From positions 1-64,000 of the forward strand of contig JABLXX010000005.1 of assembly GCA_013177825.1 (NCBI GenBank): a stretch of 64,000 nt of DNA, given 5' to 3'. Shown piece by piece: positions 6,734 through 42,600 of the stretch (positions within the stretch are counted from its first letter, which is position 1; every line of letters starts with the position of its first letter). A program made the position numbers and the translations under genes. The DNA is from Syntrophaceae bacterium. Its GTDB lineage: Bacteria > Desulfobacterota > Syntrophia > Syntrophales > PHBD01. Under the pieces are notes generated by a model. The model ran no database searches and was not told where the DNA came from. It saw only the letters and a program-made list of their open reading frames with translations.

Positions 6734-8161
6734 ATGGATTTGAAACCCTATCCCCTGGAAACACTCTTCGGCCGCATCATGAGCCCCTTCGAGCGCTTTC
6801 TCAAGCAGACCACGGCGGGCGGAATCGTTCTCATCGGGACGACCGTATTCACCATCCTCTTTGCCAACACACCCTGGGGCGGATGGATCCACCATCTTTT
6901 CGAGCAGACCGCCGGGATTACGGCGGGAGGAGAGGTTTTCCTCAGCCTCACTCTCCACCAATGGGTCAACGAAGGGCTCATGGCCCTGTTCTTCCTGCTG
7001 GTGGGACTGGAACTGAAGCGGGAATTCCTGGTGGGAGAGCTTTCAAGCCCGAAGGACGCCGCCCTGCCGATAGTGGCGGCTGCCGGCGGGATGGCCGTTC
7101 CCGCGCTGATCTACTTCATGCTGAATCCGGCGGGACCGGCGGCGGCGGGCTGGGGTATTCCCATGGCCACGGACATTGCCTTCGCCGTGGGAATCCTTGT
7201 CTTGCTCGCCTGGCGGGTTCCCCGGAACGTGATCATTTTTCTGACGGCCCTCGCCATTGTCGACGACCTGGGAGCGGTCCTGGTCATCGCCCTCTTCTAC
7301 ACCCAGGCCATCGACTGGGTGAGCCTGGGCTCGGCGGTCGTCATGCTGCTGTTCCTGACGATGCTCAACCGGGGAGGCATCCGGCATCCGCTCCCCTATG
7401 TCCTGGCCGGGATTCTGCTCTGGGTCTTCCTGCTGAAGTCGGGCGTCCACGCCACCATTGGCGGCGTCCTGCTGGCATTCACGATCCCCGCGAAGCCCGC
7501 CCACACACCGGAACAGTTTGATCGCTCACTGGAGGAACTGAAGGATGCCTTCCATGCGGAGACCTGCGACCCCGAATCCTCGGGAAATCCCCTGAGCAGC
7601 CTTCGCATGGCCACCCTCGCGGAGGCTCTGGAGAAGGAGGCCATTGCGGTTCAATCTCCCCAGCAACGGATCGAACACACCCTCGCCCCCTGGGTCACCT
7701 TCGGCGTGATCCCTCTCTTCGCCTTCGCCAACGCGGGGGTGGACTTTTCCGCCATCGAGGGTTGGGAGGCCCTGGCGGACCCGGTCACCCTCGGCGTGGT
7801 TCTCGGTCTTGTCCTGGGCAAGTTCTCCGGAATCAGCGGGGCAAGCTGGCTGGCCGTCCGGGCCGGACTGGCGGTCCTTCCCCGGGGTGTCGGCTGGATT
7901 CACCTGTGCGGGGTCTCCTGGCTGGCCGGTATCGGCTTTACCATGTCGCTCTTCATCAGCCAGCTGGCCTTTCCCGCGGATCCATCCCTCGCCGAAAAGG
8001 CGAAGCTGGGAATCCTTTCGGCGTCGCTCGTGGCCGCCGTTATCGGATCTGCATGGATGTACCTCGCCGGGGGAACCAAAGGGAAAGGGAGCCGGCATCC
8101 AGGCTCCACCGCTCCGGACACCGGCAGCGCAGCCTGCGGAGGAACCAACGGGACATCTTAA
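6734..8161 (+). CDS. nhaA: Na+/H+ antiporter NhaA
   Basis: A 475-residue inner-membrane antiporter that extrudes Na+ or Li+ in exchange for protons. Diagnostic features are FLLVGLELKREFLVGEL (residues 87-103), MATDIAFAVG with the ion-pathway Asp at 147, and IVDDLGAVLVIALFYT with the paired Asp 177/178 equivalent to E. coli Asp163/164. It is somewhat longer than E. coli NhaA (388), with an insertion of about 60 residues around 250-320 and a Gly/Lys/Thr-rich tail. The start at 6734 follows CGGAGA and begins MDLKPYPLETLFGRIMSPFE; the longer ORF from 6542 would read through the structured leader. Its stop overlaps the stop of the convergent cyclase gene in a shared TTAA. Confidence 0.93.
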   Translation: MDLKPYPLETLFGRIMSPFERFLKQTTAGGIVLIGTTVFTILFANTPWGGWIHHLFEQTAGITAGGEVFLSLTLHQWVNEGLMALFFLLVGLELKREFLVGELSSPKDAALPIVAAAGGMAVPALIYFMLNPAGPAAAGWGIPMATDIAFAVGILVLLAWRVPRNVIIFLTALAIVDDLGAVLVIALFYTQAIDWVSLGSAVVMLLFLTMLNRGGIRHPLPYVLAGILLWVFLLKSGVHATIGGVLLAFTIPAKPAHTPEQFDRSLEELKDAFHAETCDPESSGNPLSSLRMATLAEALEKEAIAVQSPQQRIEHTLAPWVTFGVIPLFAFANAGVDFSAIEGWEALADPVTLGVVLGLVLGKFSGISGASWLAVRAGLAVLPRGVGWIHLCGVSWLAGIGFTMSLFISQLAFPADPSLAEKAKLGILSASLVAAVIGSAWMYLAGGTKGKGSRHPGSTAPDTGSAACGGTNGTS

Positions 8162-41254: not shown

Positions 41255-41342
41255 GTCGGACAAACACCGATAAGTCGTCGTCCTGACTTCTTTCCGCGAA
41301 TCCATCTCCTTTCCGAAAAGAGATTCGGAGTCTTCCCGATTG
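41255..41342 (+). repeat. 88-bp duplicated unit, copy 1
   Basis: Opens with GTCGGACAAACACCGATA, shares CGTCCTG, and ends in a 37-bp block (41306-41342) that matches copy 2 at about 26 of 37 positions. Confidence 0.65.
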
Positions 41343-41401
41343 TTGCGCCAAGGCCTTTCCCTTATTCTGCCATCGAAAATAAAAAGGAAAGGAAACAAGC
41401 C

Positions 41402-41530
41402 ATGACGATGATTCTCCCCGAACGGACCGAGTTCAATCCGCAGAGAGACCTGCTCGGGAGAGTTACCGGGCACGGAGGAAGAAACACCGGCAAGGGAAGG
41501 CTGAATCGCCCTGCGGGCACATGTGCCTGA
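41402..41530 (+). CDS. Candidate 42-residue protein
   Basis: ATG at 41402 follows AAAGGAAAGG with suitable spacing. The product starts MTMILPERTEFNPQRDLLGR and is basic in its second half. No family recognised. The strong ribosome site and position after repeat copy 1 are the only support. Confidence 0.3.
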   Translation: MTMILPERTEFNPQRDLLGRVTGHGGRNTGKGRLNRPAGTCA

Positions 41531-41587
41531 GACCCGAAGGCCGGTTGAATAAAAACGTCCTGGAAAGAGAGACGGGAGGAAAGAGCC

Positions 41588-41683
41588 ATGAAGAAGACGC
41601 AAGAGAAGAAAGTGAAAGGTTGGAGGGAGATCACGAAGGGTTGGGTGGACCCGATGGCCACGCCCATGCGCTGGACTCCGTAA
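41588..41683 (+). CDS. Candidate 31-residue Trp-rich protein
   Basis: ATG at 41588 is eight bases after GGGAGG, an ideal ribosome site. The product reads MKKTQEKKVKGWREITKGW and ends DPMATPMRWTP: a basic start with three Trp and a Pro/Met tail. No family recognised. Conservation of the peptide in related genomes would decide whether it is real. Confidence 0.38.
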   Translation: MKKTQEKKVKGWREITKGWVDPMATPMRWTP

Positions 41684-41986
41684 CGGAAAGAACATCCGGG
41701 CGTCCGCCCGGCGATCGGGAAAGAGAGGCCGAACCGAACAGACATGCACGAATTCCCTTCCTCTCTTTCCAAACGGGCGGGGTGGCAACACCCCGTCCGT
41801 TGCGGTTGCCGGCGTTTCTATCCGCAATGGCCGCCGGAAGGGAACAAAAGGGACCTCAGAGACGGCCGGGAATGGAACGATTTCAACCCGGGATAACAGA
41901 GGAAGAGAACGTTCAGAAATAAGGGGAAACAAAACCGGAACGTAACAAGACGATCAAGAACTCGGCAGAATGGAGGGTTGGAAAGG

Positions 41987-42074
41987 GTCGGACAAACACC
42001 GATACCGCGAAGATCGTTCGTCCTGTTTTTGTGCATTCTCCTATCCGATAGCGTATTCAGACCCTCCCTGATTG
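41987..42074 (+). repeat. 88-bp duplicated unit, copy 2
   Basis: Same 18-bp opening as copy 1 (exact), same total length, diverged centre, 37-bp conserved end at 42038-42074. Confidence 0.65.
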
Positions 42075-42123
42075 CATCAACACGGTCATACCGGTAGAAA
42101 CTTCCCGTCCTGCAGCCTGCAGC

Positions 42124-42343: not shown

Positions 42344-42535
42344 ATGAAAAAGGCTGAATGGAATGAAGGATCAGCGGCCCGCAAGGTAGCGGCCGGCAGA
42401 AAAGAGGAAGAATTGAAGCTGAAGGTGGTCCGAAAGGCCGGTGCAAAGACAGCGGCCCGGACGGGGCAGGTGAATTTCACTGCCGAAGTTCTTCAGGACG
42501 CCATCAAGGGCATTATCAATAACCAGGTCCCGTAA
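42344..42535 (+). CDS. 63-residue conserved-looking protein of unknown function
   Basis: ATG at 42344 follows AAGGAGA with good spacing. The product is Lys/Ala/Glu rich in the first two thirds and ends GQVNFTAEVLQDAIKGIINN plus QVP, a likely amphipathic helix. It is closed by a strong terminator 25 bp downstream. I do not recognise a family. The upstream hairpins and repeats may regulate it. Confidence 0.6.
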   Translation: MKKAEWNEGSAARKVAAGRKEEELKLKVVRKAGAKTAARTGQVNFTAEVLQDAIKGIINNQVP

Positions 42536-42558: not shown

Positions 42559-42600
42559 AAAACCCCCGTCGCGGTCCGCCGTGTCGGGGGTTATCTTTTT
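42559..42600. terminator. Bidirectional rho-independent terminator
   Basis: AACCCCCG (42561-42568) pairs with CGGGGGTT (42585-42592); T-rich tracts lie on both sides (ATCTTTTT on plus, TTTTTCATC on minus). It separates the 63-residue gene from the convergent efflux operon. Confidence 0.75.

Follow-up and report, generated by a model that had tools for sequence, protein, structure and literature searches.

Downstream of uvrA, the window (the whole 64,000-nucleotide stretch of Syntrophaceae DNA analysed here) contains two units of 88 bp (41255-41342 and 41987-42074), and three tiny open reading frames are found in the region that they span and immediately beyond it. The purine-rich, ribosome-site-like stretches that the original prediction described after the units do precede these tiny ORFs. 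The features of the locus are collected in Table 1.

Table 1. Predicted features of the region downstream of uvrA (window coordinates)
Feature	Position	Strand	Remark
Unit 1 distal operator dyad	41256..41271	+	TCGG-N7-CCGA, TCGGACAAACACCGAT
Unit 1 second 23-bp slot	41279..41293	+	half-site imperfect, CTTT at 41290-41293
Unit 1 third-slot half-site	41312..41316	+	TCCGA
Unit 1 proximal operator dyad	41325..41340	+	TCGG-N7-CCGAT, overlaps -35
Unit 1 -35-like element	41340..41345	+	TTGTTG
Unit 1 -10-like element	41363..41368	+	TATTCT, 17-bp spacer
Tiny ORF 1	41402..41530	+	42 aa, EFNPQRDLLG family; dN/dS 0.41 against sister species
Tiny ORF 2	41588..41683	+	31 aa, WVDPMATP, W-x-D-P-x-x-x-P family; dN/dS 0.22; E 1e-9
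Inverted repeat 3' of ORF 2	41707..41781	+	22-nt arms, 77% complementary; possible operon end
Unit 2 distal operator dyad	41988..42003	+	TCGGACAAACACCGAT
Unit 2 second-slot half-site	42022..42025	+	CCTG, imperfect
Unit 2 third-slot half-site	42044..42048	+	TCCGA
Unit 2 proximal operator dyad	42057..42072	+	TCAG-N7-CTGAT, overlaps -35
Unit 2 -35-like element	42072..42077	+	TTGCAT
Unit 2 -10-like element	42095..42100	+	TAGAAA, weaker match
Tiny ORF 3	42344..42535	+	63 aa, C-terminal end EVLQDAIKGIINNQVP; dN/dS 0.60
ORF 3 possible upstream start	42302	+	GTG
Probable intrinsic terminator	42561..42600	+	CCCCCG..CGGGGG then TTATCTTTTT; read by eye; absent from terminator-scan list, Rfam match there at chance level

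The two units are identical at 54 of 88 positions, with 18/18 identities in their heads and 26/37 (70%) in their tails, which bears out the original description of same-length copies sharing an identical head and a similar tail. Among 20,000 draws of chance 88-bp pairs from the 40-43.5 kb region, the best pair reached 42 identities and none reached 54. The 18-mer of the head has exact matches in the 4.24-Mb genome solely at these two units. The CGTCCTG listed as a further shared element is indeed present in both, but it is not aligned, standing at 41279 in one and 42019 in the other with an 8-bp shift. The proposal that the ends are under selection around an unequal centre is nearly right: the ends prove to be full dyads, and the centre carries half-sites in a constant 23-bp register.

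With one mismatch allowed, the 16-mer TCGGACAAACACCGAT of the distal dyad matches 25 times in 155 Syntrophales genomes and its reversed control 8 times, and the variant TCAGACAAACACCGAT constitutes six of the 25. Reading of the loci with such a 16-mer led to the recognition of a second, downstream dyad with the form TCRG-N7-CYGAT. The resulting two-dyad pattern, with the gap left free between 30 and 60, has 12 matches in nine of 154 Syntrophales genomes and none when reversed, and in 11 of the 12 the gap is 53 or 54 bp. A sequence-only profile detects such modules in 37 of the 154 genomes, with up to six per genome. Another module, at C1:944560-944674 (L204) in the genome of the window, lies before a three-ORF operon coding for one EFNPQ protein and two W-x-D-P proteins. 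At C6:19487-19502 (L008/L128) of the same genome, one site, TAGGACAAACACCGAT, is closely accompanied by a second dyad, TCGGACGCTCACCGA, upstream of the gene for a small, membrane-like protein of 91 aa; this may be a shortened form of the array.

The modules share a common architecture, with TCRG-N7-CYGA dyads at both ends and intervening half-sites on an exact 23-bp register. In nearly every copy the last dyad shares one base with a TTGnnn hexamer, which is followed after 17 bp by TAnnnT. Information peaks across 54 non-redundant modules fall on the two dyads, on the half-sites that precede the last dyad by 23 and 46 bp, on the TTG and on the TAnnnT 17 bp further on; similarly, in 43 modules anchored by requiring TAnnnT, CY[GTC]A is found, counting from the last dyad, in 98% at 0, 79% at -23, 72% at -46 and 60% plus 30% at -69/-68, against a positional background of 3%, though the percentages from both sets are partly circular and somewhat inflated because the model that picked the modules includes the inner columns. 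The inner half-sites are present in 8/11 and 9/11 of the modules whose detection took no account of the centre. The distances between distal and proximal dyads (46, 68-70, 91-92 or 114-115 bp) deviate by no more than 1 bp from a multiple of 23 in all 40 arrays scored; those of 46, 91-92 and 114-115 bp are rare, and variants with three, four, five or six slots exist. Both units of the window have a good third slot and an imperfect second one. Neither window promoter is found by a generic promoter scan, which, like the poor matches of their -35 elements, is expected of activated promoters, though it proves nothing.

These features bear directly on the earlier proposal of a repeated promoter or leader. 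The promoter half of it holds, in that each unit is an operator-like array ending in a predicted promoter. The leader half, namely a riboswitch or other cis-acting RNA transcribed from further upstream, could draw on the length of the conserved stretch and its position before a ribosome site, but the predicted stability of the two units is no greater than that of shuffled sequences (z 0.26 and 0.02), no Rfam family matches at gathering score, and the 3' end of the unit is occupied by the conserved -35- and -10-like boxes. A structured RNA of this kind is thus extremely improbable.

In the sister species (G001) both units are retained in the same order after uvrA, and positions 41305-41800 are 87% identical, versus 83% for the end of uvrA and the start of unit 1. 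The unit 1 ortholog in this species (C12, L129 ~7913-8073) is degenerate in its distal dyad at 69 bp, whereas the dyad at 115 bp is good; it seems that its array grew by two 23-bp slots or that the window's array shrank. Among 60 relatives, the interval is found by DNA similarity solely in this species, and no unit occurs at 23 other uvrA loci searched; as far as seen, the location next to uvrA is peculiar to this genus. A pair of similar units that flank tiny ORFs at a distance of 732 bp, together with these 23 related uvrA loci lacking a module, might have pointed to the ends of a mobile or integrating element, as was originally suggested. That suggestion is not supported, in view of the direct orientation of the units and the occurrence of single units, with their own downstream genes, at many unrelated loci in many genomes. 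Moreover, the gene following unit 2 sits outside the pair, no recombinase gene is seen in the 732-bp interval, and the W-x-D-P protein has no match in phage or plasmid records. We accordingly give the element-end explanation almost no weight.

Downstream of many modules there are tiny ORFs that have ribosome sites. The largest family of their products, typified by W-x-D-P-x-x-x-P, combines a basic N-terminus with the motif near the C-terminus and comprises about 100 ORFs in 22 of 154 Syntrophales genomes, with up to 11 per genome. The EFNPQRDxLG family is often encoded first in the operon, and the window has one member of each of these two families after unit 1. The product of ORF 3 resembles, by eye, peptides encoded after modules in G043 and G009. 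Neither the three window ORFs nor the W-x-D-P proteins tested have a Pfam or NCBIfam match. A PHROG search gave weak matches only, including one between ORF 3 and phrog_8749, a phage family of unknown function (E 0.0039), which probably reflects low-complexity similarity. Pooling of 11 sequence pairs gives pS 0.27 and pN 0.11 (p 3e-10); synonymous change thus exceeds nonsynonymous change in the tiny ORFs, which are therefore genes under purifying selection. One guess, offered with low confidence, is that these tiny basic proteins are small effectors acting on a shared cellular partner.

Another target is a 118-128-aa zinc-ribbon-like protein encoded near acyl-CoA genes. In G204, which belongs to another order, a module (C7:44400-44513, L250) lies before what seems to be a fusion of a zinc-ribbon domain with a CoA-transferase (L250 1683-2636), and in G045, G093 and G064 the zinc-ribbon and the CoA-transferase are separate, nearby genes. 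The arrangement in G204 suggests transfer of a regulated cassette.

The gene neighborhoods of the modules point to a candidate regulator. In the window's genome (G000), a gene at C5:162049-162684 codes for a protein combining a Response_reg domain (1.6e-31) with a GerE domain (6.4e-18), the architecture of NarL/FixJ-type regulators, and its partner kinase contains four PAS domains, HisKA_3 (1.8e-15) and HATPase_c (1.1e-15). This pair, at 162 kb of C5, has a module of its own and two W-x-D-P ORFs. Across genomes, 19 of 53 modules (E up to 0.001) lie within 5.5 kb of an ortholog of this regulator, where less than one would be expected (binomial p ~1e-26), and the linkage is seen in 18 of 29 genomes. 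The linked modules are often directly downstream of the regulator gene, and both sides and both gene orientations occur. A scan for promoters right after regulator genes covered 12 distinct genes, and the 5.5-kb linkage is the better statistic. In G204, which was found by the module alone, the one module lies 1.8 kb from a 76%-identical regulator. We infer that the NarL-type regulator is the protein that would bind the array.

Half-sites alone name no regulator family, and G050, G152 and G123 possess modules without a close ortholog of the regulator (best identity 36-40%). The units might thus be operators of some other dimeric regulator or repressor, with the NarL-type pair being a mere frequent neighbor or itself a target. 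We regard this as unlikely, given that the linkage to the same regulator extends over 18 genomes irrespective of side and orientation and recurs in the outlier genome from another order, and that phased dimer arrays abutting a -35 element are documented for a NarL-family activator (PMC7250471). The three genomes could possibly be accounted for by use of another regulator, loss of the regulator or assembly gaps. Conversely, about 39 genomes have an ortholog of the regulator with no module at E 0.01.

The best NCBIfam match of the regulator is the GacA/UvrY/SirA model (NF007018), at 176.7 bits against a cut-off of 280 bits. Together with the AGGAG-rich leaders, this match raises the alternative of a GacA/Rsm-like circuit, in which the transcripts would sponge CsrA via GGA motifs and the ORFs would be incidental. 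Such a circuit is very improbable, as CsrA (PF02599) was looked for without success in the window's genome and in that of the sister species, both of which are 100% complete and possess modules, and as the ORFs evolve as proteins. PF02599 was also not found in G028, G033 and G204, and it is present in 11 of the 18 module-bearing genomes searched.

The two 88-bp stretches are best read as a pair of copies of an operator-promoter array that is dispersed and lineage-specific. The array and its fixed register, the promoter-like geometry, the recurrence, the linkage to the regulator and the coding selection are all properties of the sequences themselves. From these we infer, with a probability of roughly 0.78, that the unit serves as the operator of a sigma-70-type promoter which, under control of the NarL/GerE-type regulator, drives the tiny ORFs. 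Phosphorylated dimers of the regulator would occupy the strong distal dyad, with further dimers lying side by side every 23 bp, over the weaker half-sites and as far as the proximal dyad, which overlaps the -35 element. With a transcription start 7 bp past the -10 element, the dimer centres would be at about -112, -89, -66 and -43. At the proximal dyad, the regulator would help RNA polymerase to use a poor promoter, with unit 1 driving ORFs 1 and 2 and unit 2 driving ORF 3. Binding by this particular regulator, activation and control by phosphorylation are accordingly to be understood as predictions.

On a broader scale, a single two-component system might control many dispersed 23-bp-phased arrays, largely in Syntrophales and once in another order, that are mostly placed before unnamed families of ~24-63 residues (W-x-D-P-x-x-x-P, EFNPQ-x-x-x-LG and those ending like EVLQDAIKGIINNQVP). 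This tentative proposal, a lineage-specific regulon whose products form a multi-copy small-protein effector system of a new functional class, is one that we hold at slightly under even odds. While systems working on the principle of the array are known, the literature searched appears to contain no description of this one, of its binding code or of its targets, and no paper on such a regulon in Syntrophales was found in it. If the operator-promoter reading is right, it would at once identify, for a syntrophic order, a candidate regulator, the binding code that it uses and its targets, and it would supply a natural series of more than 50 promoters from which the reading of phased arrays by a NarL-type activator can be followed. 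Additionally, abundant genes for tiny proteins that lack Pfam or NCBIfam matches would become findable by their promoter.

Two known systems offer points of comparison. GacA/UvrY recognizes a palindromic upstream activating sequence before the rsm small-RNA genes (PMC2375449). The system described here resembles it in having a NarL-family regulator, for which the GacA/UvrY/SirA model is the nearest in NCBIfam, and a palindromic site before several short, dispersed transcription units. It differs in that the transcripts encode proteins under selection, the regulator falls below the NF007018 cut-off and CsrA is not found in the genome. The Gac site is not known to include a phased array.

At the fha promoter of Bordetella, the NarL-family regulator BvgA binds as head-to-head dimers every 22 bp, with the strongest dyad furthest upstream, the other sites being weak matches, and the last dimer abutting the -35 element (PMC7250471). 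The arrays described here, as read from the sequence, differ from this promoter in their spacing of 23 rather than 22 bp, in having a TCRG-N7-CYGA dyad in place of the inverted heptad, and in usually possessing four slots, of which the inner ones have conserved half-sites and the one at the promoter end is again a full dyad. Their targets are tiny proteins and the associated kinase is a multi-PAS protein. Nevertheless, the strong primary dyad is likewise the one furthest upstream, the spacing predicted for the dimers is likewise constant at about two helical turns, and the last site likewise abuts the -35 of the core promoter, which is here a predicted sigma-70 promoter. The candidate regulator, with its receiver and GerE/LuxR domains and its partner kinase, is also comparable to BvgA.
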